From positions 8,460,001 to 8,524,000 of the forward strand of contig CM020503.1 of NCBI GenBank assembly GCA_009823395.1: 64,000 nucleotides of DNA, read 5' to 3'. Source of the DNA: Thamnaconus septentrionalis. Taxonomy: Eukaryota; Chordata; Actinopteri; Tetraodontiformes; Monacanthidae. Position numbers and translations under genes: made by a program. A model generated the notes under the pieces. It ran no database searches, was not told the origin of the DNA, and worked only from the letters and a program-made list of their open reading frames with translations. Of the stretch, positions 18,391-61,764 are shown in pieces (the stretch's first letter is position 1; each line of letters begins with the position of its first letter).

Positions 18391-18485
<95 letters not shown>

Positions 18486-18660: not shown

Positions 18661-18706
<46 letters not shown>

Positions 18707-19142: not shown

Positions 19143-19148
<6 letters not shown>

Positions 19149-26520: not shown

Positions 26521-26574
26521 TTTCATCACACATTGTCCCAGCTTGAATGTAGCACTGCACCCTTCCGCAATACA

Positions 26575-28527: not shown

Positions 28528-29207
28528 GTAAGTAGAAAAACTGTATTTGGTTCTCTCCTTTGCCAGAATGACGATTAAATGTTTTTTCCTCAAAATAAAC
28601 CTTTTGCTTCTACAACCAGCCGATACCCATACATCACCAACAAGCAAATCAGTCTGACCCTGTACATTATATCTTTAGCTGTGCAGAATTAATTACTGGT
28701 CTGCTCTCTTCTTGGTCTCAGATTGTATTGTGAATGCCCCATTGGAGGGTGGTATCATCGGTTGTCAGCTACCATTTGGGCTATAAGCCTCGTCACACAG
28801 AACCCTTTGGTTCTGCAGTGTGGGAAAACACAACAGCTAGTGTTTTCACACAGAGAGCCATGCCCAGCTTGATGTTTAAGAAACACATCGTGCAACGATG
28901 GATTTCATCTTCTACTAGGAGTATCAAATGCTCACGAGCCTCGCAGCATCACAACCATTTCTCTATATTTGCTTCTGTTCAGTTTTTAAGTCCTCCTGCA
29001 GGGCCACGTTGTTTAACCTGCCTGTCTTCAAGACTTCAGCCCAACCGAGTGGACTGTAAAAGACCACATCAGCATAAAATTCATTTGTATCAAACCAGTC
29101 CAATTTCCAGTGTCTACATCGTCTCGACTCCATATGGGCCATCAAGACCCCTGATGAAATGAAGACCTTTACCGTACCTTGGAAAACCTCTGATCCAGCC
29201 TCTGTTT

Positions 29208-29239
<32 letters not shown>

Positions 29240-32200: not shown

Positions 32201-35200
32201 AGTCTGTCATAGGGCGAAGGCAGGGTTTCACCCTGGAGAGCGCTGGGTCACACAGAAAGACAAACAACCATTCTCTCTCACTCGCTCTCTCACTCACACA
32301 CACACATGCCTACTTTTGAATTTAGAGTTTCCAATTCACCTCACATGCATGTTTTTGGACTGTGAGAGGAAGCAGGAGAACGTGGAGAGAAGCCACACAG
32401 ACACAGGGAGAACATGCAAATTCCACACAGAAAGCTGACTGTGAGGTGACAGCGCTAACCACTGCACCACTGTGTTGCGCATGGATCATCTCATTACAGC
32501 ATTTTCACAGTTTTGCTTTCAATAGTATTTCAATTCAAAATCACCAGTGAAAAAAGCCATCCCCAAAAATGAATATTTTGTTTATTAATAGAATAAGAAG
32601 AAATAAGAAGAGAAGAAAAGAATGGACGTTAAACCATATGTAGACTGTGTCGGACTATGACTAATTTCAGCCCTGGGCCCCCTTATTTATATACTTACTT
32701 ATTTACTGTTAACATTAATTGTTCAGTTGTTTTTATAAAGGCAATTTACACAATTTGTCCAATTATTAATTTAATTTTTTCCAATATTACTGTAAATATA
32801 ATGCTGTGGAGTTCTTCAAAAGGCTGATAAGGTCCTTTAGATTTTGCCATCCTTTCATTCACATACATGAAACTCAAAAGATGGTAGTCTTTGGTAAATG
32901 CTTCTTAATAGTATGTCGTAAATGTTTTGTCCCTAAGCGAGTCCTTGAAGGTGTGTGTACAATGTTTGACTTATTATTTTTTTAAGCTTTCTTCTCTTGG
33001 TAAACTCTTCTTTTCCCCTCACCACAGAAAACCATCCGCTTCTACTGCCTCAATACCATCTGGATCTAAAACTACCCCAGCAGACAAACCCAGAACTCCG
33101 GTAACTGAAAGCAAAAGCCGGGCTACAACACCTCAGACTGCGAAACAAAAAGTGACCGGTTCCGTAGCAGATGGCAGCTCAACAAAGCAGGTCGCCAAAA
33201 CTTCAAATCCCGAAAAGACGTCCAAGAAGGCAGCTATTAAAAAGGACCCAGCACCCAAGTCCGCAGCTCCAGAAAATCAGTGCGACACCGGCCACTCGGA
33301 ACAGAAACCTATATTAGGAGAATGTGACAACGGTGAGAAAGAATCTGTGGCAAAAGAGACGGTAGAGGCTGATAAACCGGATTCCCGAGCGGAGACGTGT
33401 TCAGCCGAGCCAGAACAGAGTGGAGAATCAGCAGGTGGAGCTTCAGAGCCGATGGAAGTCGAAGGTGTTGCCAACCGCAAAGAAGAGAATCTAATACCTG
33501 TTGATTCAGTAGACAGAGAACCTTCAGCTGAGGGACCCAGTGAGAGTCAACCATCTACCAGCACTCTTGAAATTCCTGCAGCAGAAACCCAAACCGTGGA
33601 GCAAGGTACTCACAGCTTGGATAATTTCAGCGCTAATCTGGGCTGCCTTTTAAATATTCCCTTTAACTCTGATGCAGCTTCCACCAAGGATGTGTCTTCC
33701 AAAGCTGAGACATCTGCAGCAGCGACGAAGCAGCAGCAGCCTAGAGCATCCAGTTACGGTGCAGATCAAGACTCCACATTGACCATTGGGGACACCATAG
33801 AACAGCATCTGCAAACAAACCGCATTGGTAACAAAACATGTCTGACTTTTTTCTGTGAAGAAAAGACATTGTTGTTTTTTATTAATTCTTAACTTTCCAA
33901 CTTGTCATTTTCTCAGTGTGCCTGAAGAACAAAACCTGCTTCTCCCCAAATGTATGTTTTTGTTTTTGTTTTTTAAACAAATTTTTCAAATTTGTGTTTG
34001 TGCTTGAGATTCCATTTCAATAGGATATGAAGTCGCACTCAAACTTCACTATTTCCTGCGATGACGTCTAATGAATGGAAATGGTTTTTTCATCTCGTCA
34101 CAAGTTTTCTTCCACTTTTCCAGTTTTTTAAACATGGCAAGAGGGAGTTGATGATAAGCATGCTGCCCGTGTATTCCAAATGCTCCTACTCAGAAGAGGA
34201 CCTCGTACAACTGCTCACCCCATTCGGGTTCCAACATCAGGCGGAGAACATCTACATTCTTCCTCAGTTGCGCACGGTGGGTCCTAAATGAAGTTCCTGC
34301 TGACACACTGGCAGCGTCAGCTGTCTTAGCCACGCCCCTTCGTGCTTGACCACGTGCTTGTGCTTACAGTCACTGTTGTACAATGCTCCAATAACTAACA
34401 GTAGTAACTCTAAGAGTAATTATAATGCCATGTACAACTTACTTGTGTCTGTTGTTTGTTGTTTCAATTCATTTTATTTATAGTTATTGTCACATTGTTT
34501 TGACCTGCTTAGTCCCACTGAATAGTGTCAACGGTGAGATGACTCTGTGTTCTTGACCTTCCTCTCAGGCCTTCGTCAGGATGCCAACGATGGAGACGGC
34601 CCTTGCACTACTAATGAACTTTGTGGGGAAAAATTTGACGTTTAAAGAGTTCAAGATCCGTGTCCGTTTACTCGGCTGTGATTTAGCAATGTCTCCGGTG
34701 AGCAAAAAAATGAATTACTTTCCAGATGAATTTAAAAACAGGTTGATTTAATCATATTTTGTTTGTTTAGCTGAAGTTAAAGGTTAGAGGATAGTTTAAT
34801 ACAGAAATTCATTTCAGTTTATTTTTTAAAAATTATATTTTCTCCCAAATATCCTTTTTTTTTTCTTTTCCTTTTTTTTTTTTTAAAGAACTCAATCTTA
34901 TTTATCTTTTAGCCTTGAGGTATTTTGTGAATACGGCCCTTGCACTTAACATGATCACAATTGTAATTTCGCCTTTCTCTCTTTTAGCTCGGGTTTTATA
35001 AATACCTGATGAGACTGATGAAGACTGTAAGTGGACACGCACGCCATCATGAACACACAAAAAACATGAATTCATGTAGTTATTGTTCAAAGTGTTAAAA
35101 GGTGACAAAAGTGTTTAAATAAATTCTTTCCAGATGTCCGTTCCATCCTATAAGTGATCTGTAAGCATGAACCTTCTCTTTAAAGTTTTTACCTCTGTAT

Positions 35201-38200
35201 GTGATTGCAGCAAGTGACTGATGATGGACAGAGTTTAATCTTTATCAAGAACATCTCCCAAAGTAAGATTAAAGAGCTGAGGGAAATACTGATGGGAAAA
35301 ATCCAGGGTGTCAAGAACTTCCTGCCTCTTCTCAACAAGGTAAGAAGTGAAACAAAGTCAATGTCACTGACTGTTATGAGTAACGTCCTCCGACCAGTCT
35401 TCACTTTGCCTTTCCAGGTGTTTATAGAATTTGAGTCTCCTCATGATGCTGACCGCCTTGGAGTTTGGTACAGTCTCCTGAGAGAAGATCTCGGCCTAGA
35501 GGTGTACAGGCAGAAAATACCGCGTGAAGACTCCACCTCGCTGCGTACGTCTCTGAAAATATCATTTAGAATGCCCATAAAAATAGACATTTTTGTGACA
35601 AATTGTGAGAATATTTAAGACAAATATTTTAAACCAATCAATGCCATGGTGTTATTATATTGTTAACCATTGCTCATGTTTTCCAAGGTTACAATAATTG
35701 ATTCATATTTGACTTTTTTTTTTTTAAATACTAAAAGACAATTTGTAGCAGTTATAGTCAAAGAGGACATAATAGCATTTGTAATATTTTTAAAGTCAAT
35801 GTATACGTGTGTGATGAAACTGGACGTATGTGTACATATATTTATGTTGTTGTTCTTGTTAATGCCATTAGTACCAAGACATCCAGAAAAAGCTTTCCCA
35901 GACAGCCAGGAAGCTGCGGCTGCAACGGTCGTCCCACCGGTAAATTTTGGCATCCCTCAGGGCACCGTCGCACCGTTCTGGGTCCCGCTGAGGAGGAGTC
36001 CTTTCCTGTTCCCCACCAAGTCTCCTTGGTTCATCATCCCTGGTACGAGAGACATCACAGGGCTGGAGTTCAGTTTCAAACTGTAACATCACTCACTTGT
36101 TGTTTTTGCTTTTTTGTTTTCATCTAAGATCACCTGACTGTTCAAGGAGAGAAGGACATTGAGGTACACCTTGACATGTTGTTAATGTGTTGTTACTATG
36201 GATTCAGGACCACAAAGTCTCATTTGAAATGAATCCTGTCCAGTTCTGGATGGCTTTAACCCAAACCGTGTGCTTTGCAGGAGGCTGCTCAACGTGGCTC
36301 CATGTGCCCGACACTCATGTTGACGGGTCTACCGGAGTCAAAGTACACGCAGCATGATGTTGCCGGGCTGGTCTGGCCATATCTTTCCAAGCAGAACCTC
36401 CATTCCCTCTATTACAATGTGATCGTCCTGCCACTGCAGAGGAGGGTAAGAATAGAAAATGACAGTACAAGTGGCGAAAGAAAAGCAGTGTTACAGTTCT
36501 AGTGTTTTTTTTTTTAATCCCTGCATTTTGTTCTTTCCTCACTTCACCTCAAGGCCTTTGTGTTTTTCCCCGATTGGGCCTCCTGCTGCAATTTTGTCAG
36601 GGATCACATCGCAAAACCAGTTTCTGTGAAAGACTTTCCACTTTGCGTCCACTTTGTGCTGCAAGACATGCGTCCAGAAACTTCTGAGGTATGCGGACAA
36701 CCTTCTGTTCTACACGCCTTGAAAAGATCACTTAGACAAGTACTGCTGGAAAGACCTTTGGACAGGTCTATGAAAAATCAACTGACTTTGAAATGTGTCG
36801 ACGATTCCGCAGGAGATGTTGTACAAAACGGCGATGAAGTGGGGCAACGCTGTAAGTCATCCATCTCAGCAGACCAGACGTGTTTGAACTGTGTGTCTGT
36901 CCGGCTGGCCTTTCAGCTCCGAACCTCTCTCTCCCTCTACAGGGAGTTGGGGAGCCGGAGTCTCTGGAGGAGCGCTTGCTGTGTGTGGAGACGACTGAGA
37001 TGAGCGTCAACATAGCAATCCTGGTCATGGAAGCTGTGGCCTCCATCACCAGCTTTGTTGGCTTTCTGCCCCTCGGAAACAGGGTAAATATACGACGAAA
37101 TTAAACAACTTAAAGAGCATAACTGAAAATCTACAATGGAAAGATTTGATTTGAATCGAGTTTCAGGTCACAGTCGTCCTGTTAGCCGTTTTAAAGGCGT
37201 ATATTTTTGTATTGCGGTCCATTGGAAAAAATGCTCTTAGGGCCCATTGGATTTTTTTGCTGCAGTACCTAGAGTGGCCACAGGGAACAATTGTTGCACC
37301 GCCAGATTGCCAGTCCGGTATCCAGTTCTTATAATACGTCCATGGTTAGCACAAAAAGGGAGAGGGTCAGCACAGCTGCAAGTGCCCTTTCAATGGTTCG
37401 AGGACCCCTTAGCTGCCCACTGAGGTGCCTGAGGAGAAAAGACAACAAAAAAAAACACAGTTCTCTGAAACTTAAACCCTCAGGAATTTGCAACACCTTA
37501 TGTGAAAAAGAAATGGTCCATGCTTTGTGTTTACTGTCGACATCTTCCTCCTCCATTAGGTCTGTGTTGAGATGGCTGACTCTGCAGGTGTAACTCAGGT
37601 CATGAACAACCACAAGAATTTCGCCCTGGGTTCTACGAAGAAGCACACAATTTGGTATATATGTCCTTTTCAGATAAAAGTGTTCAATTCACCTTTTTAG
37701 AAGAATTTGACTGACTTTTTTTATTTTTATTTTTTTCCAGGAGTAACGTTCTGCATTTTAAGACGTGAGTACACACTGTGATTGCTTCTGTTGAGGTGCC
37801 TGGCTCGCCGGCCCACCTCGCGTCTTCGTTTATTGGAAGAAGAAGCAGAAGTCTCGTCTCTGGATGCAATCAGTTTTATTCCAATAAGTGAATGAGAGTT
37901 TACAGAGCTCTGGGCCAAACTCTCCTGTCAATAGTCTAACAGAGAATGGCTGCTCTTTCCCTCCACAGAGGAGTTTTTATTTTGCGTTGTTTCTGCACAA
38001 GAGGAAGTCGGGACGTTGGCGCCTTGCGTGCGACGCCGATGTCCTTATTTGGTGCTGTTTCCCACGAGCTGTTATCTCCACTGCTCACACTGCTCCACCT
38101 TGAGATCCTCTTTCGGCGGGAGTGTTTCGGCGGGCGTACCTGTGTACAATACTGAGAAAGAACGTGTCGTGCAATTCTGTATCAGCATGTTTTGACTACA

Positions 38201-41200
38201 TCCTGTTTTCTTGCATAGCGCTCTGCGATTAACTTGTGATGCGCATGTGCTGTTTGCGTAAGCTAAAATATGTGCTCTTCCCACAATTCGTAAAGGTCCC
38301 ATTTTAAGAGCTAACGTTTCCTTCCAGACATCAGTGGAGCAGCCTCACAAATTAAATGACCATAGACCAATCACATCTGTTGAAAATACATTTGACCCTC
38401 TGGCTCTCCTGTGAAAAGGCTTAGTTCTGGCTTCCTGCTAAAAGAGATGTTTCAAGATGTTTGGAAGGGGACAAAACAGGTGACTGTCAGCTGGTCTCAT
38501 GGGGTGACATGAACACCTGGCTGGGTGTGTCGTCACTAACCCAGGATGATGTACCAGTGGCCTCTGTGACTTCACAAAGGTCTCATTTCTAGGACTGCCT
38601 GTTTCAGCACACACTCTCTATAAAAATAGAGCAAGCAAACTTTTCTTATTTGACCAAATTGAGACCAATAATAATCCAAAAACATATAATGGAAAAAAAT
38701 AAAACAGACTTGTTTTTCTTTTCTTTGTTAGTTTAAAGGATCTGAAACAGTGTCTGCAAGATGCTGGGGAAACTGTAATCCAGCTCAGTTTGGACACCGT
38801 TGATGCAGAAACACAGTCTGCAGTCGTGGCAACAGGTGACGCCCGGCCTGGTCCCTCTGTGTCTGTGGAAGACGGCTCCAAACCAGCTCTGCACACCGGC
38901 CTTGGCGAGTCCCCCACATCGCCCTCGAGTGGCTGTGCCTCGCAGGACGCGCACATGGAAGTGGACAGTGTGAAAGCTGAGGCCGAGGTCCCCACAGAGG
39001 CCGCTGTTGTTCCCGAGGACACCAAAGATGGAGAGGAAGCGACGGCCGATGACGAACGGGCAGAAATTTCCACCTCCACCTCAGAGGCGACCCCTGCAGT
39101 CGGTAGTGGAAACACCTACCATGACCCGTCAGCCGCTGAGCCCCAGCCGGAAGAAAACTCAGGACAACTTGAGATCAACGAGGAGATTGTCAGGGCTCTC
39201 AAAGCAGCAGTTGAGGAGCGCAGAATCATCCTCGCCAGCAGGGCCCAGCACGAGAACAACACGGTACACACACACACTTGGGGCTTTAACCTTTAATGTT
39301 AAAAAAAGTACTTTATTTACTTAAATCTGAGGAAAAATAGAAAAGACAACCAGTGAAAACCAGCATCTAATAGCTGCAGGCCTGAACCGCTGCTTAAGTT
39401 CGAGGAGACCAAAGAGCAAAGGTCACTTCACTCCCAATAGAGCAGAACAGTAAAAAGTGGTCAGTACCTTGTATAGTGTCCAGGGAGGCTCACAGCTCTC
39501 GGCTGCCTGTCCAGCAGGTGGCGGTATCAGTAGAACACACTCACGGTGGGGTTTGGCTGAGTATCACAGAGGGACTCTGAGCTTCCAGGATGGATCAGAT
39601 GGTCCTTCTATTCGGGTCGGAAATACTTGCAGGTGAAACTAGTGGTGTTAGCTGGGTTAGGAAACAGCCGCTCGTCTCCTGTCCACCGCGACTGACCCAC
39701 TCGCTTGACTTGAGTTACAGTTGTTCTTACAGTTTTAGTTTGTAACTCCCCATAAATGTCCTGGTATATTAACTTGCCGTGAATCCCAGTTTTAGTAGCA
39801 CAACTTTCCTCCACAGCTGCGGGCATCCACGCTCCCTCATTACATGTTCACCGGTCACACTGTTTTGTGCGCATTGTATGCGTACACACGCACACCAATT
39901 GTTTACAACGCACGTACCGAGCATTTCTCTAGAAATATACCATTTTAAAATAAACATACCTTCACCTAATTAAATGAAATAAGACAGAGGCAATTTTAAC
40001 ATTTTTGACATTAATTCTTTTTTAACCAATGAAGTTAGGCATGACTTGACCACACACTGAAAACATGCATTTGAACATTTTAACCCTTTCACTCTATTTC
40101 TTCCTATATTCATTTTCCTCTATTCATCTATTTATGAACATCTTTCATTGGGCTACAATGACATATGATGTCCTGGTGATTTAATGGGTGGGCTGGAAGA
40201 CAGGCTGTAGATATAAATGGAAAGCCTTGAAGGCTGTAATATTTCAGTATTTTAGTTATTACTCTGTATTTTAGTCTTTGATTTCCGTCCTTCTATCTTC
40301 CATCCAGGCGGAAGAGGACCGTAGCCGGGACATTTCCTTATCAGATGCCCCATCTGAGCTCCACCATGATTTCCCCAGGGACAGCTTTGTTGTCATTGAT
40401 GAAATTTACGATGACCCGAACGACACAGACGAAAAGGAAGAAGCAAAGAGAGAAGATGCTGACCACAGTATGGGGAGGAGGGAAGAGGATGGAACCTGTC
40501 AAGTCCTCGATACACTTGATGATCTAACTGACGTCCAGGTGGACCATAAGAGTCAAGAGGGCAGTTCAGAGACTCGGCAAACTGCACCTGAGGAAAACCT
40601 CCAGGTCGTAGATGGAGTAGCAGCTGGAGACAGAACTCAACAAGAGGACAGCGGTCAACTGGACCCGGAACAAGGAGAAGAAGCTTCAGTTGAAGCAGGA
40701 AGACGACTACCTAAGGCGGAGACTGACGGTCTGGAAAAGAGTAGCACAAAAATAGGAGTTGCAACATCGAGGAGAAGTGACTCTGACGCCACAGAATCCA
40801 AAGATGAAGAGAAGGAGGAAATGTCCTCTGTTAAACAGACAGGAGATGAAAAGGTTGAAGTCAGTGCCACTCCAGAGAGAGCTGGCAGGAGGAGGAGTGC
40901 TCGAGGAAAGAAGGAGGACAAAACAGCATTGTTCTCCTCAGAAGTGGCTGAAACTACCATCAAAGATGAGGAATCTTCATTTAAGGTTCTGGACTCTGTA
41001 GAAAAGGAGACCGTGGATGACGAACCTCCTGTCGGGAAAAGAGTTACCAGAGGACAAAGAAACAGACAGAGCAACAAAGAGACTTTGACTGAGACGACGA
41101 GGAAAGAGAGGACGCCGTCGAGGAGGAGGAACACTCCCGGCAGGGAGGAGAGCACACCAACAAAGAAGAGTGAGCCTGCTGCAGCGGAGGAAGACAAGGA

Positions 41201-43310
41201 ATCATTGGACTCCCCGGAGGAGCAAGTTGTCCAAGATGTCCGGACCAACACTGGACGGAAACGTGGACGGACGGGGAAAGGTGCTCAAATAAATAAAAAA
41301 GCGAGCGTGCCAACAAAGGAGGATGACGAGGAGACAGCTGCAAAATTTGCAGAGGGAGAAGGGCCTGGTGAGGAAGAAGAGGACAAAGCGGAAGAGAGCC
41401 AAAGAGGAAAAGAGGAGTTGGCGGAGCAGCGTTCAGCCGTCGCCTCGGCCGAGCCGGTTGGAGACGAGGACACGAAGGTGGAGCAGGAGGCCCCAGCTCA
41501 CTCCCAGCAGGAGAAATCAGCAGACGCCCCCAACCGAGAGGTACCGACGTCATAAAAAGCACTAAACATCAGTGAAGATGAAGATAGGCTTGCTCCTAGT
41601 GACGGTCTTGATTCTGTTTCAAGGCCGTGCTGACTGCAGAGGAGGCGGCAAGAGACGAAGAAAAAATCCCCGCTGCTGGCACACAAGACGAAGACACAGG
41701 TGTGCTTTTCAATTCAACAAGATGTGGCTTAACACAAATGCAACACATATAACTCAGACTGTATTATGACCATTCATCCATCCATCCATCCATCCATCCA
41801 TCCATCGTAAACCTTCAGAGCAAAAATTAAGCCCTGGTGTAAAAGTGTAAAGGCCTGGCCATCCCAACAAAATGGAATGCGACCGTTTTGATCTTTCAGA
41901 CCTCACTGCTCCCCATGACACTGTTCTCTCTCTCTCTGTCTTAGAGGAAAGCATGCACCTGGTTGCAACGGAGCAGCAGGAGGAGGTGGAGGAGCAGGAG
42001 CAGCAGCAGGAGGAGGAGGTGGAGGAGGAGCAGAAGACCCCAAGACCTCGAATGAGAGGCCGAGGACGAGGCCGAAAAAAAGCCAAACAAACACCCGGTA
42101 AAACACATATGATGCATGTATAACGCTACTGACGTGTGGGGATATTTGGCGGTTTTTCAAAACAACCGTTTGCTCATCACACCTGCATTTCTAATTGGTT
42201 TTCAACGCAGTGAGAAAATCCACCAGAGGGAAGAGAGGCGGAGCGAGCGACGAGAGCCGGGAAGAGAAGGAGGCCGAGGACGACGAGCCCCCTGCCTCTC
42301 CGCTCGGACCGCCCTCGCTGCCCAGCAATGAGGCAGAACTAACGAAGCAAGTGGATGCGAACGCTGCCCCCAGTGGGCAGGAGGTCCAGCTGCAGATCAT
42401 TGGGATGGTGGATGGTTGTTTGGAGGGAGGAGAGGAGGAGGACGAGGAGAAGGAAGGATTGAAGAGAGTGAACATAAAAGGTGAAGAAAAAAATGAAGAC
42501 TGTGACTGTGTCCACAGTGTCATATATTTATTTTACTTCCTCCCATTTTTCCTTGTGTTTTGCAGCTGAGAGCAAACAGAGGAGGGAGCCTGCCGGACCT
42601 GAAGCGAAACGATGTCGCTCTGCATCACCGAATCCACCTGCTAAACCCAGACTGCCCCCGTTTAGACCCAACAACCCTATGGGTGAGACACACACACACA
42701 CACACACTACAACAACCAGGTATGTGTTTTAGGTTGAAGAAGCGTCAAGTGTAAGCGTTTTCATCGTCTGCATCCGCAGGTCAGGAGTTTGTGGTTCCCA
42801 CGTCAGGATATTATTGCAGTCTCTGCTCCATCTTCTACATGAAGGAGAACATGGCCAAGGTGCGGCACTGCAGCAGCCGCAGGCACTACGACAACCTGCA
42901 GGTACGCTCACTTCTTCTTCTTCTTCTGGCTCTTCTTCTCACCCCATCTCCTCTTCTTAGCTTCTCCTTCTGAGCGTCTCAGAAATCTGGTGCCACATAA
43001 ACATATTGTGTGCTGTGTTAGACAATGGTTTATTCTGGTTTATTGAAGGGTTGAATGTTTTTTGTTTGTTTGTCTGTTTTATTATTTTTATTTTTTTTTC
43101 ATTCATAAAATCTGTTTATGTGAAAATGAGCATAATTTCAACTTTCAAGTTTTGTAAATAAAGTATGGTTGTAAAAATCAAAATTTTCTTCTTCTTAATA
43201 TCTTGTGGTGTTTAACTCTGTATTTTTGGCCTGTTGATTTATAGAAACATTATGAGGATCCTACAGAGAGACCTTCAACACCTCCAGCACAAAGCCCAAC
43301 TTCTCTCTGA
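26575..43310 (+). CDS. znf638-like: ZNF638-like RNA-binding zinc-finger protein, copy A
   Basis: Spliced gene assembled by hand from GT-AG sites and reading phase. Exons: 26575-28527, 29640-29701, 29947-29985, 30284-30514, 30611-30918, 31245-31387, 31511-31645, 31729-31824, 31972-32006, 33028-33605, 33678-33827, 33917-33951, 34124-34276, 34569-34697, 34988-35026, 35211-35339, 35418-35544, 35872-36042, 36129-36163, 36281-36445, 36554-36688, 36813-36851, 36943-37083, 37560-37654, 37741-37764, 38732-39263, 40308-41540, 41624-41699, 41945-42097, 42211-42480, 42566-42682, 42780-42901, 43245-43310. All phases close and give about 2,571 codons ending in TGA (human ZNF638 is about 1,980). The start ATG has A at -3, follows an in-frame TAG at 26482 and aligns with an internal Met of copy B. 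Domains in order: matrin-type C2H2 finger, RS region, five RRM-like units, acidic region, second matrin-type finger. Family members are nuclear RNA/DNA-binding proteins; the role here is inferred. Exon edges may be off by a few bases. Confidence 0.88.
28528..29639 (+). other. Copy A intron 1
   Basis: Between exons 1 and 2. It contains a TTTTG pentanucleotide run near 29204-29236 and no coding signal that I trust. Confidence 0.6.
30284..30918 (+). other. Copy A RS-rich region (two exons and a 96-nt intron)
   Basis: Exons 30284-30514 and 30611-30918 encode an Arg/Ser-rich segment, about residues 685-864. It has alternating SR dipeptides followed by repeats of the RRSPPRRS type. Such segments mediate protein contacts with splicing factors and nuclear-speckle localisation in RBM20 and SR proteins (family knowledge). 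The intron between them (30515-30610) is a multiple of three and has no stop, so a read-through form would keep the frame. Confidence 0.8.
31511..31824 (+). other. Copy A RRM-like unit 1
   Basis: Two exons, 31511-31645 and 31729-31824. The first gives VRVKLSGL (beta-1) and an alpha-1/beta-2 stretch ending FGKVQSIVLYRS. The second opens with VKVDFEKEEDA (beta-3). The split is phase 0 between beta-2 and beta-3. This is the unit most like a canonical RRM; the aromatic RNP positions are only partly kept. Confidence 0.8.
32125..32480. mobile_element. Fish interspersed repeat with ATCC tail in copy A intron 9
   Basis: An ATCC/GTCC run at 32134-32164 is followed by phrases very common in teleost repeats: TCATAGGGCGAAGGCAGGG, GCATGTTTTTGGACTGTG, GGAGAACATGCAAATTCC, CTAACCACTGCACCACTGTG. 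I take it as a truncated SINE or LINE 3'-end repeat on the basis of remembered fish repeats; the family name needs a library search. Confidence 0.6.
32481..33027 (+). other. Rest of copy A intron 9
   Basis: AT-rich, no exon seen. It ends in a pyrimidine tract and CACAG acceptor at 33027. Confidence 0.5.
33028..33827 (+). other. Copy A Lys/Ser/Glu-rich linker between RRM1 and RRM2, with a possible 72-nt intron
   Basis: A low-complexity linker that can be read straight through. Copy B has an intron at the equivalent place (56199-56304). Copy A has a good donor at 33606 (CAAG/GTACTC) and acceptor at 33677 (GATGCAG). Splicing joins codons in the same phase as in B. The 72-nt piece is a multiple of three and stop-free, so both forms are coding; I prefer the spliced form. 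Confidence 0.65.
33917..35544 (+). other. Copy A RRM-like units 2 and 3 (block I)
   Basis: Exon sizes are 35, 153, 129, 39, 129 and 127 nt. RRM2 is 34124-34276 plus 34569-34697 (ELMISMLPV; FVRMPTMETA). The 13-codon exon 34988-35026 (YKYLMRLMKT) is a spacer. RRM3 is 35211-35339 plus 35418-35544 (LIFIKNIS; VFIEFESPHDADR). Each unit is split in phase 0 just before beta-3. RNP motifs are degenerate, so these may be protein-contact or weak RNA-binding folds. Confidence 0.78.
36129..37764 (+). other. Copy A RRM-like units 4 and 5 (block II)
   Basis: Exon sizes are 35, 165, 135, 39, 141 and 95 nt, followed by a 24-nt exon. RRM4 is 36281-36445 plus 36554-36688 (TLMLTGLPE; AFVFFPDWASC). The spacer exon is 36813-36851 (EMLYKTAMKW). 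RRM5 is 36943-37083 plus 37560-37654 (RLLCVETTE; VCVEMADSAG). RRM5 is the weakest match. The layout repeats that of block I. Confidence 0.75.
37084..37559 (+). other. Copy A intron between the two RRM5 exons
   Basis: 476 bases with no coding signal. Open frames here have no similarity to the family. Confidence 0.5.
37765..38731 (+). other. Copy A intron 967 bases long
   Basis: A GC-richer central part (about 37790-38160) may be an old mobile-element piece, but I could not identify ends or a family. Confidence 0.4.
39264..40307 (+). other. Copy A intron before the acidic exon
   Basis: About 1.0 kb with no exon seen. It contains AGGTGGCGGTATCAGTAGAA near 39515, a phrase common in dispersed fish repeats, but no clear boundaries. 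Confidence 0.4.
40308..41540 (+). other. Copy A acidic repeat exon
   Basis: 411 codons, very rich in Glu, Asp and Lys. It carries three recognisable copies of the family acidic motif: FVVIDEIYDD, CQVLDTLDD and FKVLDSVEKE. It also has basic AT-hook-like patches (GRKRGRTGKG). Bases 41029-41362 are identical to copy B. The exon is less than half the length of its 2,958-nt counterpart in B, mainly because of fewer motif copies. Confidence 0.85.
41029..41362 (+). repeat. Inverted identical segment, copy A arm
   Basis: 334 bases read as identical to the reverse complement of 48369-48702. Upstream, 40933-40980 is also identical, with a few mismatches in between. Identity stops sharply at 41363 (G against A). 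Confidence 0.85.
41766..41806. repeat. ATCC microsatellite
   Basis: About ten ATCC units in the short copy A intron 41700-41944. Confidence 0.9.
41945..42097 (+). other. Copy A exon with eroded VTVDEV motif and basic RG-type tail
   Basis: This is the positional equivalent of copy B exon 46334-46432, which encodes NFVTVDEVGEEE. In A the same place reads HLVATEQQEEVEE, followed by Gln/Glu runs and PRPRMRGRGRGRKK, a basic AT-hook-like tract. The acidic motif has therefore decayed here. Confidence 0.75.
42780..43310 (+). other. Copy A C-terminal matrin-type zinc finger and last exon
   Basis: Exon 42780-42901 encodes VVPTSGYYCSLCSIFY and then RHCSSRRH, giving C-x2-C and H-x5-H, the matrin/U1-type pattern found at the C-terminus of ZNF638 and RBM20. 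The last exon, 43245-43310, adds 21 residues and TGA. Confidence 0.9.
42902..43244 (+). other. Copy A last intron
   Basis: 343 bases, AT-rich, including an AATAAA at about 43158 that could allow intronic polyadenylation just after the zinc-finger exon. No coding signal. Confidence 0.4.
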
Positions 43311-44136
43311 GAAGAATCACTGACTACTGGGGGAAATAAACCAGCGGCATTCCGGAATAACTCTCCCAGTCGGTGATTCATGTCGGGTTCCTTTTTTTTC
43401 CCATTTGCATTAATTCAAGCTCAGCTGTCACTGTTCCTGTCTTATATTTTGTTGGTCAAACTCTGATTGAAGAGATGGTTAAACAGCTGCATTTCATTTG
43501 CTTACTCATCTGCTTTGTTTAATCAGACGTTACATTATATGATGCATAACAGAACAACATTAACAGAAAAGTACAAAATTTATGTTGTAGATTTAAGATA
43601 TGAAGTTTTTCTTGTCAATTTGTAAAAAATCTGTTGAAGTGTTGCTTTTCTGATTTATCCAATCTCCTCTTGTGTTTTGTGACTCTGCACCACCTTTTTA
43701 TGTGTTATGTTGTAAAACATGCTGTTATTCATTACAATATTGAGGTCAAGACGTCTTTGTAAGCTGTTTTTACTCCCTGACTGGAGAGCTGGCATCTGAT
43801 CAGAATCACAGCACCACCAGCTGTTGTCCATTCTTCCAACCCATCAGATTTATATGATACCATGACACAATCAATACTGTCTGACGTGACGTTGAAAACG
43901 GTGCTTTGCATCAAAAAGTGAGTTTACATCCAGATTTTGTTCTTGTTTGCCAAATCTACAAAGGTATCAACACAACAGGAGGCTGCTGTGCTGATGGAAA
44001 TGGGATCCTTCCAAGAGCAGAACACTGGCAGTATTGTGTTTTTCAGTTTGTGAGACAGAGGTTTCAGCGGCTGTTTTTGGCAGCCTGGGTTCAAATGGAT
44101 GAAAATCTAATTTCTTGTTCTAAAACAATCATTATC

Positions 44137-44142
44137 AATAAA
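44137..44142 (+). promoter_or_regulatory. Probable poly(A) signal, copy A
   Basis: AATAAA about 830 bases after the stop codon, followed by an A-rich run. A second AATAAA at 43335 lies only 25 bases after the stop and could give a very short 3' UTR. Confidence 0.5.
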
Positions 44143-44560
44143 AAAACGTCTTGGATTTTGTCCTTCTCTCCTTTTCTGCCACTTGGATGCGTGTGATGAT
44201 GCACGATGATGGATGCAAAAGAAAAAACTTTTGAAAACTGGTTTTCAGGTCCAGTGGAGGGTCATGATGCCTCGTGTATTTTGTGCATACTTGGTTTCAC
44301 ACGAGCTTCTTTATAAAGGCAGAGTTCAAGGAACGTAACTCACAATTTCCTTTAAAAAAAAACCCAAAAAAGTCCAGTCCTTTTCCGTTTTCCCTCCACA
44401 GATGAAACTTTGATACTATTCTGACACTTCTGATTGGTTCTCCAGGCAGGTTAGGAATTACAGTGCCCTGCCACTCACCTGCCAGTTGAACTGTCTCTGT
44501 TTTGAGTGCTGCTGAAAGCTCTTAAAAAAGGCAACGAACCATTTCTTTCTTTTTCAACAA

Positions 44561-44566
44561 TTTATT
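44561..44566 (-). promoter_or_regulatory. Probable poly(A) signal, copy B
   Basis: TTTATT on the + strand, AATAAA in the sense of copy B, about 350 bases downstream of its stop and just after the 44602-44638 hairpin. Confidence 0.5.
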
Positions 44567-44601
44567 GAAACATTACATAAACTTTTAGAACGCGCTTAAA
44601 A

Positions 44602-44638
44602 TAAAATGCATAGATCATGCATTGATCTATGCATTTTA
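44602..44638. repeat. Perfect inverted repeat (hairpin), 16-bp arms
   Basis: Arms are TAAAATGCATAGATCA and its exact reverse complement, separated by the 5-base loop TGCAT. In copy B RNA it lies in the 3' UTR some 35-75 bases before the poly(A) signal. Confidence 0.85.
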
Positions 44639-44916
44639 CACCCCTGAAGTTGATGCATTACATTTTGAATCTCAAAGGTCAAACAAACTTCTCAGTTGAA
44701 TAACAAAAAGATAAATCTTTATATGTTTTTGTTTTGTGTGTGTGTGTGTAGACTGTATGTGTTAGCATAATTACAATATGAGATACATTTTCAAAGAATC
44801 AATCCGCAAACCTGTTAAAAAGCGTTTCACTGGTTTTAACCAGACAATAAACATTTTTACACCTTCTGACTGCTAAAAGCTGTGATGCAATGTTTCATCT
44901 CGGTGGAAGGTTCTGA

Positions 44917-46432
44917 TCAGTCCGAAGATGTTGCTGAAGGTTTCGGAGGCCTCTGTTTATGCTTCTGATAATATTTCTGTCAACAAACGAAAGAGTAGAA
45001 GGTGTTACCGACTTGAAGTGCAGTGTGTGTCATCGACCTGTGTGTACGTGTGAGCGTACCTGCAGGCTTTCATAGTGCCTGCGACTGCTGCAGTGGCGCT
45101 CCTTGGCCATGTTCTCCTTCAGGTAGAAGATGGAGCAGAGACTGCAGAAATACCCTGATGTGGGAACCACAAACTCTTGACCTGTGGAGGAAGACCATGA
45201 GAACGCCTCATAACATCATCTTCATTTCAAACAACAAAAAAACAAAAACAAAATTCAAGTTCAAACATGGATGTATGTTAGTGACGTGTGTCTCACCCAG
45301 AGGATTGTTGGGTTTAAAAGGCGGCAGGATGAAGTCTGCAGGTTCACAAGGTGACGTGGAGCGAGATTGTTTGGCTTCAGGCCCAGCGAGCTCTCTCCTC
45401 TCTTTACTCTCAGCTGAAAAAAAAACACAAGGGCACGTTAACAAAATCATGCACGCTGCTGTGGTCACACCCATGATTATATATTTTTATTTTTTTTGGA
45501 CCTTTAATGTTCGCTCTTTTCGATGCTTCCTTCTCCTCTCCTCCCGCCAAACAACTGTCCAACAGCTGGTTTTCCTGGACCTCCTGCCCACCAGGGGCAG
45601 CATCGGCATTGACTTGCTCATCTACTTCCACCTCTTCTGCGTTGGTCAGTGGGTGTGGTCTGAGGGGGGAGGCAGGAGGGTCATCATAAGCTTCCTTCTC
45701 TTCCTGTGCCTTGTTGCTTGCGGCAGCTTTCTTCCCTCTGATGGACTTTCTCACTGTGGTGTAAAATAAATCATTGGGAGAGAAAACAGAACAGATTAAT
45801 TGTTAAACTCCTGCAACACTGCAGAGTGTCACCGGAATACTGCTTACATTGAGTGTTGGGAAGATTACTTTGCAAATGTAATTGGTTACAATTACAAGTT
45901 GCCCCACTGAAAATGTAACAGTAGTGTAAGTATTTCAATTACTTTATCAAAATAATGTAACTAATTACATTTGATAACATTTTGATTACTTTTCTTAATG
46001 TTGAATAATTGCTCTCAACTGTATTAGACCTGACAGTGTTCATCTTTCAGCTGTACTCAAAACAGAGAGAGACAATTCAACTGGCAGGCCTGGGGCAGGA
46101 TGCTGAAAGTCTGCAACTCAACTTGACAGGGGAACCGATCAGAAACTTCAGAATAGTATTAAACTTCCGTCTGTGGAGGGAAACTGTAAAGGATGGTGCT
46201 TGTGCCAAAACCATGCAAAGCAACATAAACAAAACCATTAAACATAAAACCCAGCCTTTTTTGTAAAAATTGGTCAGATCATCAATAATCATGAATCATC
46301 AGTAATTCCACAACTTTGGGCTCTGAGTGTTACCTGCTGTCTGTTTGGTTCTCTTTGGTGGGCTGCTTCTTGTCCTGTGTGGTACTTCTTCCTCACCCAC
46401 CTCATCCACAGTAACAAAATTCATTGTTTCCT
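44917..46432 (-). other. Copy B 3' coding exons with VTVDEVGEEE motif and C-terminal zinc finger
   Basis: Exon 46432-46334 carries NFVTVDEVGEEE, the ZNF638/RBM20 signature. Exons 45753-45502 and 45413-45297 are acidic and Pro-rich linkers matching copy A. Exon 45181-45060 encodes the matrin-type finger (YFCSLCSIFY; RHCSSRRH). Exon 44976-44917 ends the protein. Confidence 0.9.
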
Positions 46433-49400
46433 CTGCAACAGGAAAAACAATTGAAGACATATGGAAAATACTGAATTGGAAAACATATAAGTGAAACTTT
46501 GGGGCAGACTGAATGAATAGCAAAAGGGTGGTATATTTATCTCTAATCACCGAAGTTTCATCTGTTCACTGCAAGAATTACTACCAAGTCATTTTTGATT
46601 CAGTTTGCCTTAGTTAATGTTCATTATGCAACTCACTAAAATCAAGCAACTATTATTTCCATTAACAGCAAAGTTTGTGAAAAAGTATTTTTTAAATAAA
46701 CAATAATTTAGGCCCAGTTTACACTATAACAGATAGCAGACATATTACGATTTGCTCTCCTATTTAAAAAGGAACGGCGTGTTCGACTACATGAAGCATG
46801 ATATGGCCTTCAAAGTGGAACTCGCAATTTAAATGGGTCATCAGTTTCCTTCCTGAGATTGTCAACGTCACGCTCTACCTGCCGCATTTGTAATACGCTT
46901 CATTTCTACTTGCCATCATCAAACAACAAGAGGGATGATGGAAAGGGCTCAAAACCAACAGAAAGGGTCTGTGATGTGACGACCTGCCAGAAATGAGCTT
47001 CATATACCAATTGTTTCATCCACCTAATATATGTCGATGACAATCATGTATTGATTGAGATTTCTTCACTTGCGTAAACACAACAACAACGTAAACACAA
47101 CAACGAAAAGTTGTGCAAACCAGGCCGTAGTTCTGTGCATCGCTACCTGTACAGCTACACATTTCTGGATAACGGACCTGTGTCTTCACTGTGTTTGCGT
47201 TTTGAGGTGGTTTTGTCTTCAGCCACCTTCTCCTGGTCATCACCCTCAGCTTTAGTCACTGAAGTCTGAAAGCAGACGCAAGTTTCGTTAGCGGTTTTGC
47301 TTCTGTTTTTGAATTGACATAATGTTGAATGTTTCTACAGTGTCTGAGTGGTTGTTCTATACGCTTTTGGAGATCTGTACCACTGGGTCGGAGGAGTCTG
47401 CTGATGCCACCTGCTGGCAGAGTGGTCGGGTGCACAGCGGGCTTTGCTCCACCTTCCTGTCCTCCTCTTCTTCGACAAACTCATCCAGAGTGACGAGTGT
47501 CTGCTGCTCTCCCTCAGCGATCTCCTCCTCCTCCTCCTCCTCCTCCTCCTCCTCCTCCGTTGTGTGGCTTTCTGTTCCTCTTTCCTCTTTGGACTCATCA
47601 GCTCCTTCTTCATCCAAAATAACAAGCTCCTCCTCCTCCTCCTCCTCCTGCTCCTCCTGCTCCCCTTCCGTCCACCTCCTTGTCCTTACCCTGATGCCTC
47701 TGCCTATGCTTTCGCCCTTTCCCTCCTTCTCCTTGGTCCACACTTTTCCTTCCTGCCGACGCAGTGGTCCAACCTGTTTCTTCCAGAGTTCTTCCTCAGA
47801 TTCAACAGGAGGGAAGTCTTCCTCATCGCTGACACTGTCCAGGTTCAGAGGGCTTCTCATTTTTCTCTCCCGTAACTCAAGCTTTTCCTCCTGTGGTGTT
47901 GAATTCTGCTCTTTGGTGTTGGCTGTTCTAGGTGGGTTCTTCTTTTTACCAGTGCCACAATCGTTAGTACAGGACAAATCCTCGTTGACCCTCTCCAGAC
48001 GGTCAACTGCTACACTTGGAGTCTCCTTGGGGATGACCGCAGCTTCGGATGCTTCCTCAATTGTGACGCCGCATTTTGACGTCTCCTGGTTTTCGACCGA
48101 TGCCTCTTGATCGCTGTTTTCCTTTGTGATTTCACCAGAGACTTGTGTGACCATTGAATCTTCTTGATCCTCTTCTACAGAATCCAAGATCTCATACAAT
48201 GGTTCTTCTTCGTCCTCCGGATCAACTTTAGCTGGCTCTGTGACTGCTTTGCTTGACCCTTCGCTTGCAGAAATGTCACTTTCATTACAACTCTCAGGCG
48301 GTCCTGCCTGCGCTTGAACATCACTGGTCTCCTCCTCCACAGAGTCAAGAATTTGATACGTCACCTCTCCTTCTCCCTCTGCAAATTTTGCAGCTGTCTC
48401 CTCGTCATCCTCCTTTGTTGGCACGCTCGCTTTTTTATTTATTTGAGCACCTTTCCCCGTCCGTCCACGTTTCCGTCCAGTGTTGGTCCGGACATCTTGG
48501 ACAACTTGCTCCTCCGGGGAGTCCAATGATTCCTTGTCTTCCTCCGCTGCAGCAGGCTCACTCTTCTTTGTTGGTGTGCTCTCCTCCCTGCCGGGAGTGT
48601 TCCTCCTCCTCGACGGCGTCCTCTCTTTCCTCGTCGTCTCAGTCAAAGTCTCTTTGTTGCTCTGTCTGTTTCTTTGTCCTCTGGTAACTCTTTTCCCGAC
48701 AGTAGGTTCGTCATCCATGGTCTCCTTTTCTACAGAGTCCAGAGGACTGAATGAAGATTCCTCATCTTTGATGGTAGTTTCAGCCACTTCTGAGGAGTAT
48801 GAAGATGCTTTATCCTCTTTCTTTCCTCGAGCACTCCTCCTTCTGCCAGCTCTCTCTGCGGTGGTAGTGACTTGTACTGTGTCTTCTTCAACAGAGTCAA
48901 CTATCTCATAAACCATCTCCTCTTCTATTTCTTTGCATTTCTCTTGGACTCTGGGGATAGTGTCCATTGTCTTGCGTGTCTTATATTTTGGAGCTTTTCC
49001 TTCACATTTCTTGGGAGTCGTCTCCTTTTCTTCATCCTTGGATTCTGTGGTCTCTGAGTCACTTCTGCTGGATGATTCTCCTTTTGTGGCACTCTTTTCT
49101 GAAAAATCATTCTCCACCTCAGCAACCATCAGCTGGTCTTCAACACTATCTATTACCTGATATGTGTCTTCCTCCTCCTCGTTGCAACTGGCACATTCAG
49201 ACAACTGGCTCCAGGTTCTGAGGTCTTCTTCTGCCACAGTCTGATCATCGATGGAATCCAACACCTCAAACTTTTCTTCATCAGGACTGTTTTCATCTGA
49301 GCCCATTGGATCATGCTTAAGGTCTAAGTCCTGAGCAGGCTGGTCCTCACTTAGATTCTCCAAGTCGTTGGTATCTTCTCTAATCCTTGTATTCAGCTTT

Positions 49401-52400
49401 GCTAAAGAACCTACGCCTCCTGCATCTTTCATGATTTGATTTTCACTGTTGTCAGAGAGTTGTGTTCCCGCTGAGCCATTTTCTTCTTCTTGAACAGGAG
49501 CTTCTTTGTCTTCAGCAGTTATGTCTCCAGTTCTTCTGTCTACAACCTGCAAATTTTCCTCAGGTACAGTTTGTTGTGTTGTGTCCACCTGTTTGTCGAT
49601 TTTAACACTGAGAGAATCAGGGACTTTATTATTTACATCATCCATGTTCTTCTCTCCCTTGTTGGCATTTCCTTTGTTTCCTTCCTCCTTGCAATCCATT
49701 TGCTTTTCAAATGTACTGTCCATGATTGTTTCTGATAGAGCAGTTTTTTCAGTTATGCCTTCATATGCCTCTGTGGGGTCAGACTTAAGTACTACACTCT
49801 CTGTCCCTTTGGCTTCTGTTGCGGTTGCTGCAGAGAATAAGCAAGTACTAAGACTATTACCAGCATTTGAAGGTTTGGGTGAAGATTCAGATTTTTTGAC
49901 TTGCGTTCTCTGACCTGTTGAGGTGACAGTTACAGCAGACGGTGAAGAGGAGGACGAGGAGGGCTTACTGGACCTGGAAGAGGTTCGGGATTTGGCAGGA
50001 AGCTGTGAGGAGGCAGACGAGTCTGTGGACTTTCTTGAAACAGAACTTGAATCAGAAGATCCTTTCTGAGACTTGGATAAGGAGGAGGAGGGTTGGCTGC
50101 CTTTCGAGGACCTAGATGAGGTCTGTCTGCTACTGTGTGAACTTTGCCTCACTTCACGTTCTCTGTATGCCGATGAGGAGGACCTGTGTGACCTCGTGGT
50201 GCTGTCTTCAGTGTCATCCCAAACTTCATCAACAGTGACAAAGTCCTCCATGTTTATATTGAGGTCATCAAAAAGGTAGACATCTGAAGATAAAGTGTCA
50301 GCTGTGAAGTCATCTTTAGCCTGGAAATCACAAATGGAAACGTGGAAACAATTAATGTGTATATTTGTAAACCGCACAATTGGTAAAAGCTGTTAACTCA
50401 TTGAATCATTTACAAAAGCAAAAAAAGTATAGTAATCTGCTTTTTCTCACCACTTTTGGAGGGCTCTGTTGAGTCAACTTGGAACTGGAGTTGTTTTTGC
50501 TGGAGCTCTGCAAAAAAGCAAGACCAAAGAGAAAAATAGAATTGATGATGTCAAGGTGAATTATAATCATTGATTCGAGTTTCTATATTTGTTGACTGTA
50601 ACTGTGCTTTGTTTTTCTCATTATGTTAATCTTCACAGGGAACATAACTGTCATCAGTTTCATATGAAAACATCCAATAGTGAGGTTTCACTGAGAACTG
50701 TGGACGATGAAAATCAACATTTCCAAACCCAACAAATACAAATTTGTCAAATAAAAACACCTTTTACTCCCAATTGAGTGAAATACTACTTAGCAAGATC
50801 ATTTTACACAAAAGTCGATGAACTTTAAAATGTCAAAGAATCACATTTTTCTATACTTCAACAATGAATTTACTATATTCATTTTGCACTAGCCCAACTC
50901 TTTAAAAGTCAAAGTCTGATGTTTTGATGCTATTTTTGAAGCTGAAAGCGGTGCAGGATTTTAAAAGCAGGTCTTACCTCCTCCACCTCTTCCTCACTCT
51001 CGTCTTCATTCTGATAAACTGTTCTGGTTATAGTCTTCAAAAAGTCTTTGTTGAATGACTGCTGCAGGGCATCATCTGCATTCTGGTCTAAGTTTAGCAG
51101 GATCTCAGAGGCCTCTTGGAGGCGCTGTTTTGTCCTCTGTGCGCTAGATGCAAAGACAAGAGCAAAAGTGTTTTAAATCCAGTCTTGAGTACCAATATCA
51201 GAAAAGCAATGGCTGAGTGAGAAGCGCTGCAGGACCATTGATCTACCATCCTCTTCAAAACAACAAAGCTATTAGAGAATATGGGACTTAGAGCCAACAC
51301 TTGTGTCTTTATAAACTAACGAGTATTGTACTTACGTCTCAAAACGTTGAACATTGCTCCTGAAGAGAGAGAGAAACATATTTATTAAGTTTAGTTTTAA
51401 GGACATTTGAACAACCAGTTCTTACAAAAGCACAGGTCCAATTTCCTAAAAAGATTCAGAAACGCATTTCAGCCCACTTAAGTTTTTAAGAGGTAGATGT
51501 ACATACCAGAGCACGCCTTTCTCAAAGGAGTCTGGTGAGAAAGTCTGATAGTTTTCCAGGACTTTTGTCAAACCGGCAGAGTCAGCCATCTCAATGCATA
51601 TCTAAGGAAGAAGTTAAAAGAGAAGCAGAAACAGGAGTTATTACAGTGCATTGAGGCAAAATTTAGTTTACGTTGTGAAAGAAATCAACTATCCATAAGT
51701 CAATCTTTATAACTACAATATATTATGGAGAAAAGCAGATGAACATCCCACCATCAAGAAAACTTGAGCTGCAAATATCTTTTTTTTTTTTTTTTGTTAA
51801 GATTTAGTTTTCATTTGCATGTTTTTGAACTGTTTGAACTGTCTAAATGTTAGTGCTTTGAACAATCAGAAAATAAAGTGATGTTTAGTGGATCTTGTCC
51901 ACTTGCTTTTGATTTTGCTCCAAGAGCAGGTGTCTGTGGTTGGTACCATCTATTCTTAGTCACATACATTAAACACTTATTCTATTATTTTAGTGCAGTT
52001 TTTGTTTCTGTTTAAGTACCCTGTTGGCAAGGGGCAGGAAGCTCACAAAGGGTGCAAAGGAAGACACCACTTCCACAACCATTCTGACAGTTTCTACAGA
52101 TGTCTCGGACGTCTCCACACACAACAACCGTTCCCCCAGAGTGTCTGGCTCTTGAATTTCCTGAAAAGGGGCCTGAAGAGAGAAAAAATGTTCATGAACC
52201 AGAAGATGGGCATGTTTTTGCAATTTTCCTTTTGTTGTCTTAAACATAAATAATTGCAGACTTACAACTTGGCTCCATTTTATCATAGGGTTGTACAACA
52301 TTTCCTGCAAAACAGAAAAGGTCACTCTTAAAAGTAATGGTGAAATACAACAAAAAGACGAGAAGAGAAGTCAAAGAAGAGGACAAATATTATTATTCAT

Positions 52401-55400
52401 TAATATATTTTGGACAGGGAAATGTGGGGGACCTGAAATCAGAATTTTACTCAACACTGACTGTTATAAATGACCAAAGTTAAATAGTCAAATTTTCATC
52501 CCTCATAATATGGTGAATGAACTTTTAAAATTTATACAACAGACTGTTTTACAAAATGATATATTCTGATGTTTTGAAGGTTACATACACAGCTCAAAGA
52601 GCAGACTTTACACTGTTTTCCAGTTTCATACCTCAGTGCACTCAGGGTGGATGTCTTGCAGGACAAAATGAACTGTGAGACTGCAGCCATTTAAAGAAAA
52701 CGGATAAGTGAGGTGTTCCCGTACAAAATTGCAGCATGAAACCCAGTCGGCAAAAAACAAAAACGCCTAGAAGTGGGACAGGCAGGGGGAGAAAAACAAA
52801 CAAACAAGAGTCGCTTTAACACAGTTCAACACAAAGTGAGATAACAATATTGACAATTTGAGTTACAATCCTCAGCTGATGTAGCTTACCCTTCTCTGCA
52901 GTGGCAAGACAACCACGTTGTAATAGAGAGAGTGAAGATTCTGCTTTGCCATATAAGGCCAGGCCAGTCTGGCAATGCTCTCATGACGGTACGGTGTCTC
53001 AGGCAGACCCGTCAACATTATTGTGGGAAACATTGAACCTCTGTGACCAGCCTCCTAAAAAACACAGTCATTCAAAACACAGCTTGAGGAGTTCTGGAGC
53101 ACAATTATGTAAGTGTTTCAGTTTTGTCAGAGGAATAAAATAGTAATAATGTACACATCTGTAACATTTAATGAAACAGGAAAAAAGAAAGTTTAGAAAC
53201 TTGGAAAGAAAATTTGGCTGCAATATGCCTTCTTAATAAATCTTATACACTGGGCCTTTCATGGAACACATTAAATAAAAGCTATGTAGAAAGAAATGTC
53301 CATTGATTGATTTGTGGCATGACTGTTTCAATTAAATAAATTAAAGCTGCAGGCAGCATTCAAGGGACTGAGCCTGCCGTTGTCACCGAACCTCTTCCTG
53401 TGTGTTTATAAAAATAGAAACAAAAACATTTATATAAACTAGGGCCGTTAATCTTGCTAATCTTGCTCATATGTAAACCTCAACTTTCAAGGCTCAAAAA
53501 ATGAGCAATTTATCAATCTCTGTAATGTAAGTACTGCAGTAACATTCTCTTGGCAACGACCCCACTCAGATAATGGTTTAACTGTTCTGAACAAGCAGAT
53601 AATTAAAACAAGACAACAAACGCAACAAGCCTAGCTTGAAATAAATACATTCAGTTATTTTAATTCACACCTTTTTGCACAACATTACTTCAGTTAAGCA
53701 AATATCAAAACAGGTAATCATTTAAATACCAGACTTACCCGAATATCATCCATCTTTGTGACGGTCAGGTGAGCTGTGAGTTACAAAAAAACAAGACAGG
53801 AAAAAAAACTGAGTGGATGCACTGCCAGTGAATTTAGTGCTATGGTTGTACATGCACAATAAAGACTCTTTACCTGGAATACTAAACCAAGGAAACGAGG
53901 TGGAAAACAGGAAAGGGCTCGTTTTTGTTGCGATCCAAAATGGTGCATTGCAGCCTCGTGGAATGAAAGAGTGTATTTGTGGGATTTTAATTCCTTCAAC
54001 TTCATCCTTTCTCTCCAAACTTACTCGTGGTGCTGTGGGTGAAAAAGTTTTGAACTCGTCAAAATGTAATTGGAGACATACTGGTCAAAGCAATGACGTA
54101 AAGATACATTCAAATTACTCTAGCATTAACATCCAATATACTGTAGTTTCTCTACAATGATTTATATTTTTTATTAGTGTAAAAAAAACATTCAAAAGTG
54201 TAAAGTAACTCAAGACTCACTAAACAGTTTGTAGGTTTTTGGTGCTTTCAGCCTGAAGATTTCATAACCAGGGTCTTGTTTCAGGAGATTGTACCAAACT
54301 ATGAATCGGTCGGTATCGACACTGGTCCAAAATTCAATAAATACCTGGAAAACAGAAGCAAGTGCAAACATAAATCAGCTCTAAGGCTAAAACAATGCAT
54401 TCTTTTAACCACCAAAACTGATGTGACCATGTGGATTTGTACTTTGTTGAGCAGAGGAAAGTAGTTTGCAATGTTACTATTTTGTTTCCAAACTACAGCG
54501 AGCTCTGCGGCTTTGCTCTGGGAGATGTTCTTCAGAAGGATCACTCGGTCTTCCTTTACTGCAGGCTGCATGGGAAAAAAAAAATTGAACAAAGCACGAG
54601 TAAAAATGTAATTAAACAGTCCTGGGTAACCTCATTTAATGTTTGCGTCTGCACGCTGGTTACTTACTTTCTTCATCAGCCTCATCAGGAATGTGTAAAT
54701 TCCAAGCTGGAGCAGAAAACACAATAGAGCAGCATTATAATGCAAATAGAGATAATTAAGTTGGCAAAAAGAAATAATATATACAAATGTATATATATGT
54801 ATATATATATACATATATATACAAATGTGTGTATATATATATATGTACATTTAAAAAAACAAAAACAAAAAAAGAATGTAAACTTGTGACTGTTCTTACC
54901 GCCGTCACAGAAACATTAGACGCCACAACACCAAAACAAAGTCTGGACTGTTTGAAGAAAACGCCTTCATTTCTGAAAGATTTCATTAATGCAAGAACAC
55001 TTTCCACATCGGGCATCTCAACCAACCCCTTGAGAAAAAGAGAGATTGATGGAAACAGCAGAAGTAAGACGTGTTAGAAAGTAGTGAGCTGATGACTAGT
55101 TGTGAGAGAAATCAGTCTGGTCAAAGGCTTCCAACATCAGAGCAGTGCTCACCATTTGTCTCTGAGGAACAACGTAGATGTTTTCGTGTGTGTACTTGAA
55201 GCCAAACGGGATGAGCAGCTCAGCCAATTCATTTTCGGTGTAGCAGTCATCATTGTATCTTGGCAGTTTAGTAATTAGCAACACTTTACTGCCCCTCTCC
55301 AAAATCTTGAAAAAAAGAAAATGAAAAATCAAATTTAATGCCGAAGGAAACACTTTAAATTAACATAAAAACCTAACAAAGAGATTAGCGAAAAGCAATT

Positions 55401-61719: not shown

Positions 61720-61764
<45 letters not shown>

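Follow-up and report, generated by a model that had tools for sequence, protein, structure and literature searches.

Recent gene conversion as the probable origin of an identical 334-base patch shared by two tail-to-tail znf638-like genes of Thamnaconus septentrionalis

RESULTS

A patch of complete identity between two diverged paralogues

The window analyzed in this study, a stretch of 64,000 nucleotides from Thamnaconus septentrionalis, contains two znf638-like genes in tail-to-tail orientation, which we refer to as gene A and gene B. Their acidic repeat exons share a patch of 334 bases without a single mismatch, while the paralogues are strongly diverged elsewhere, and the identical patch is, with high probability, best explained by recent interlocus gene conversion between A and B.

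The patch occupies positions 41029 to 41362 of the forward strand in gene A and positions 48369 to 48702 of the reverse strand in gene B, and BLAST aligns the two copies at 334 of 334 bases. It is coding sequence with a purine content of 70%, and the identity extends to the silent sites: no synonymous difference is observed at 74.7 synonymous sites (dS 0, Nei-Gojobori method). The extent and the silent-site identity that the initial annotation had given for the patch are thus both confirmed. Each of the two bases that adjoin the patch in copy A (41028 and 41363) is mismatched to copy B. The BLAST match itself is wider than the patch and spans 505 bases (40858 to 41362 against 48369 to 48873) with 96.0% identity, and all 20 of its mismatches are located in its first 171 bases.

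Run-length statistics, i.e., a permutation and an exact count, were used in place of GENECONV. The run of identity between the paralogues is far above the expectation from the surrounding divergence: when 20 mismatches are distributed at random over 505 sites, the exact count gives P = 3.8e-9 for a clean run of at least 334 bases, and such a run was reached in 0 of 200,000 permutations, both values referring to a patch that was picked after being seen. By the rule of three, 0 differences in 334 bases corresponds to a 95% upper bound of approximately 0.9% for the divergence since the event, and 0 differences at 74.7 sites to one of approximately 4% for the synonymous divergence. The GC3 of the patch is 0.536, with values of 0.42 before and 0.66 after it in gene A and of 0.41 before and 0.54 after it in gene B; this comparison with the neighboring parts gives no clear pointer to either gene as the donor.

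Overall arrangement of the two genes

Gene A extends from 26533 to 43310 on the forward strand and gene B from 44917 to 63967 on the reverse strand. Both coding extents are approximate and are based on the collinearity of the two genes, on tblastn (for gene A, with the related proteins P0006 and P0015), and on the N-terminal open reading frames. A sensitive blastn comparison of A with B yielded 22 local matches, which follow the same order along both genes except for 3 overlapping ones at 30667-30878. The acidic repeat exon that carries the patch spans 40308 to 41540 (+) in gene A, where it is aligned by P0006 and P0015, and 47381 to 50320 (-) in gene B; the ends of both exons were placed by eye from AG/GT sites.

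A protein search with the exon of gene B gave 26 matches, of which three carry the name zinc finger protein 638 (or 638-like) and four that of a matrin-type domain-containing protein; the remaining ones have other names or none, and those named after zinc finger 638 or the matrin type are from fishes. P0006 and P0015, which are two of these 26 matches, map exon by exon and collinearly onto both genes (tblastn). Because of this mapping and the names of the relatives, genes A and B are called znf638-like. The zf-U1 family of Pfam was detected below the threshold in two of four relatives and was not detected in the other two, no RNA-binding domain was found in the four (Pfam, E 0.01), and the two acidic exons contain no Pfam family. 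In a tree of A, B, and their relatives, A and B are sisters with a support of 89/93 (not starred). The tree includes 4 of 30 relatives, namely those in which the conserved upstream region is sufficiently complete, and A and B fill 42% of its columns; given this sample and coverage, the age of the duplication is uncertain.

Left and right edges of the patch

The initial annotation had described a sharp drop in similarity at both ends of the patch, which is correct for the right edge and incorrect for the left one. The right edge is the boundary of an indel, at which 13 bases of copy A (41363 to 41375, +) correspond to 811 bases of copy B (47558 to 48368), and it is this gap of approximately 0.8 kb that makes the edge sharp. 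The left edge is graded. The left flank (40858 to 41028, +, in copy A; 48703 to 48873, -, in copy B) shows 20 mismatches over 171 bases, i.e., 88% identity and a dS of 0.205, and 2 of the mismatches lie in its final 41 bases. When the flank is divided into thirds, the dS values are 0.44, 0.09, and 0.10, which are based on few sites and on pieces that share one codon at their overlap. An identical island of 48 bases is present within this flank, as had been noted, at 40934 to 40981 (+) instead of 40933 to 40980; its partner is 48750 to 48797 (-), and it is bounded by mismatches at 40933 and 40982. The flanking parts of the exons had also been said hardly to align. This applies to the bases immediately before 40858 and immediately after 41362; farther on, past the gap, the tails of the two exons align again (41376 to 41556 in A and 47557 to 47365 in B) with 64% identity and an E value of 5.9e-11 (blastn).

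The stretch of approximately 0.8 kb that has no counterpart in A is present in B and in the relatives P0002, P0003, and P0006. Since these relatives keep the stretch, it is most likely that copy A lost approximately 0.8 kb of the acidic exon. The right edge coincides with the boundary of this indel and therefore need not be the end point of a conversion tract; a lack of homology may have brought conversion to a halt there, or a tract that was originally longer may have been trimmed by the deletion. Approximately 270 codons of the acidic exon are absent from A beside the patch, and the length of this region is thus greatly different between the two proteins.

Divergence in the remainder of the gene pair

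Four conserved upstream exon pieces, which may correspond to the RNA-binding region of ZNF638 although Pfam gave no such match, have dS values between A and B of 1.03, 2.47, 1.16, and 1.68, and three C-terminal exon pieces downstream have values of 0.64, 0.81, and 0.39 (Nei-Gojobori method). A lower dS in the patch than in its neighbors had been set beforehand as the test of conversion, and the observed dS rises from 0 for the patch to 0.205 for the left flank and to 0.39-2.47 for the seven paired exon pieces. These values agree with the initial annotation that the paralogues are strongly diverged outside the patch, and they support its view that conversion between the copies is the simplest reading. 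The paired exons and introns show too much divergence for an undiverged, haplotype-type duplicate of the whole region, which was therefore ruled out.

The dS of the three C-terminal pieces is lower than that of the four upstream pieces (approximately 45 of 106 sites against approximately 75 of 119 sites, rounded; Fisher p 0.002). The C-terminal exons of gene A with two short introns (42199 to 42911, +) are 71.6% identical to 45050-45765 of gene B, and within this alignment the three exons are 74-90% and the two introns 57-58% identical. A further C-terminal intron of A hardly aligns with that of B (39% identity, 217 gap columns). The lower C-terminal dS and the alignable introns are consistent with the idea that the half of the gene pair nearer the symmetry center may have exchanged sequence in the past.

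A related protein with features of both copies

The protein P0001 has 650 residues and comes from a contig of 2899 bases. It was the single match to the exon of copy A in a protein search in which the 7990 candidates with the most words in common were scored, is the one relative with copy-A features among the candidates scored, and is known as a protein alone. Upstream of the flank, 59 residues are informative between A and B, and P0001 agrees with A at 44 of them, with B at 3, and with neither at 12. The 12 informative residues in the left flank are divided into 6 for A, 2 for B, and 4 for neither. Beyond the patch, on the other hand, 35 residues are informative in the homologous exon tails, and P0001 matches B at 20, A at 3, and neither copy at 12. 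It also contains the stretch that is missing from A, in which 227 of 263 residues are identical to B, and its next exon reads KVAED...KRKHSEDT as in B, whereas the exon of A reads differently. P0001 then shows KKCVAVRVTAHTTAPWLAQ, which resembles the B intron reading KCVAVQVAMHRTTAWFAQ. The informative residues indicate that P0001 switches from the A type to the B type at or about the patch. The intron between the acidic exon and the next one is absent from P0001, which suggests either an RNA origin or a deletion.

In the patch itself, P0001 differs from A and B at 14 of 108 compared residues and has, in addition, a gap of 2 residues. The patch residues of A and B are identical at 110 of 110 positions, against 94 of 108 for the comparison with P0001, which is one relative, seen at the protein level with a single copy of the patch. 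Because of these differences the patch can be regarded as free to change. P0001 shares features of the patch with both A and B; for example, 19 residues that precede E[S/G]TPTKK in P0002 and P0003 are absent from all of them. The identity of P0001 to gene A of the window in the upstream part (83/101), to the patch (94/108), and to gene B of the window in the downstream part (269/318) is at similar levels, as expected for one species split. The switch could correspond to a second, longer conversion, to a patch-mediated inversion in which the 5' part of A was joined to the 3' part of B, or to a chimera of the assembly, and a chimeric P0001 would itself need sequence common to both copies in the species concerned. 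As the switch is located at the same patch, the A/B pair may therefore have exchanged sequence more than once.

DISCUSSION

Gene conversion and its alternatives

We propose a recent interlocus conversion in which the patch of one gene was written over its counterpart in the other. On the left side, the tract would have ended inside a homologous stretch that had perhaps been partly homogenized earlier, as the graded dS, obtained from few sites, would allow. On the right side, it would have ended at or near the point at which A is without approximately 0.8 kb and homology stops. Overwriting of an existing sequence is a better fit than the arrival of a new segment by insertion, because the patch is located at homologous positions of the two genes, with collinear homology and diverged flanks on both sides (blastn).

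An artifact of the assembly would produce a similar picture if the two patches truly differed by a few percent and the assembler or polisher had replaced one by the other, and copies with high identity over approximately 500 bases can be merged in short-read graphs or during polishing. However, the flanks are diverged, the frames of both exons are open, and the window contains no N. The 505-base block would, moreover, still be far above its surroundings in similarity, so that an older conversion would be needed in any case, and in a separate record, P0001, provided that this protein is not chimeric, an A-type 5' part is likewise followed by sequence of the patch type. We consider such an artifact unlikely. 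That purifying selection, acting either on the protein or on a signal in the RNA, froze the stretch in both copies has a negligible probability. A coding patch with 70% purine leaves some RNA signal conceivable, but the absence of synonymous differences at 74.7 sites is accompanied by changes in P0001 at 14 of 108 residues of the same patch; constraint was rejected as the cause of the identity for this reason, and the earlier statement that selection is insufficient for a frozen silent patch stands.

The third alternative concerns the inverted orientation itself. Crossing-over inside the inverted patches may have inverted the intervening 7 kb in the lineage and swapped the 3' halves of the genes, with the identity as the trace of repeated pairing. 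P0001, which is of the A type up to the patch (44/59) and of the B type after it (20/35 and 227/263), is the product expected from such an event, and this mechanism is known from yeast (PMC9731477). On the other hand, P0001 could instead be a chimera of the assembly, joined via shared words, or the result of a longer conversion, and the reciprocal product, with the 5' part of B, the patch, and the 3' part of A, was not found in protein searches that each scored approximately 8,000 candidates sharing most words. With one possible recombinant product (P0001) seen, we regard an inversion of the interval as unlikely; it is compatible with conversion, and the probabilities assigned to the two are not meant to add up to one. 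More speculative, and somewhat less probable, is the idea that the patch acts as a recurrent recombination hinge, which would be rehomogenized in each lineage via pairing of the inverted copies and would sometimes invert the 7 kb. The znf638-like genes would then trade their 3' halves (the acidic tail and the C-terminal zinc finger), and the species of P0001 would carry or segregate the flipped form.

Comparison with known systems

Gene conversion between A and B has a published precedent in livebearing fishes, in which the tail-to-tail LWS opsin genes S180 and P180 underwent partial conversion with GENECONV support (PMC2732921, PMC3087554). As in the pair described here, the opsins are adjacent fish paralogues in opposite orientation with a long similar run between diverged parts, and the genes of some relatives are of one type in the 5' part and of the other in the 3' part, as is P0001. 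The opsin work deals with another gene family and includes several species and GENECONV, whereas the present data come from one window and the protein of one relative. The novelty is accordingly low; our case looks like an ordinary instance of a known process that is well supported by sequence, and the feature that merits further attention is the switch in P0001.

The flip/flop inverted repeats of Saccharomyces are repeatedly homogenized and flipping (PMC9731477). They resemble the A/B pair in that inverted gene copies are homogenized by recombination within lineages, and they offer an inversion mechanism for the switch in P0001. In yeast, however, the repeats are 4 kb long, the segment is 24 kb, and both orientations were observed, whereas the corresponding lengths in this study are 334-505 bases and approximately 7 kb, with no inversion observed. 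Conversion between inverted neighbors is likewise known from adjacent Caenorhabditis paralogues such as the hsp16 modules (PMC3966223), which are, however, heat-shock genes of worms whose genome is compact.

The authors of the opsin study considered that the inverted tandem position may have helped conversion (PMC2732921), and the initial annotation similarly assumed that the inverted arrangement favors it. This assumption is not established. In its part on orientation, a review of Caenorhabditis describes conversion in both orientations and an effect of orientation on the rate as undetermined; one survey suggested more conversion in pairs of the same orientation, with distance as a confounder, and in three early studies the tracts were confined to open reading frames or parts of them (PMC3966223). 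None of the titles listed in a limited literature search deals with fish znf638 duplicates.

The identical patch suggests that strongly diverged inverted neighbors can still exchange sequence locally. Such exchange makes gene trees and short-read assemblies misleading, and the ends of rapidly evolving proteins can be reshuffled by it. NP220 is a synonym of human ZNF638. The human protein has been linked with the HUSH complex in the silencing of retroelements and episomal vector DNA (PMC11910234, PMC8865469), and exchange between the fish copies would merit attention if the silencing role extends to these genes.

Other features of the window

No Rfam RNA matched the window at the gathering score, and no match to phage-like sequence was found in it. 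An inverted pair with 75% identity (44378-44518 and 46044-46193) lies outside the symmetry of the gene pair; as placed by eye, one copy is in the spacer between A and B and the second lies within an intron of B, and the pair could be a mobile element or a displaced piece of intron. Similar low-complexity repeat arrays occur in both orientations outside the gene pair, at 9364-9469, 13921-13987, 18383-18488, 18649-18727, and 19087-19152.
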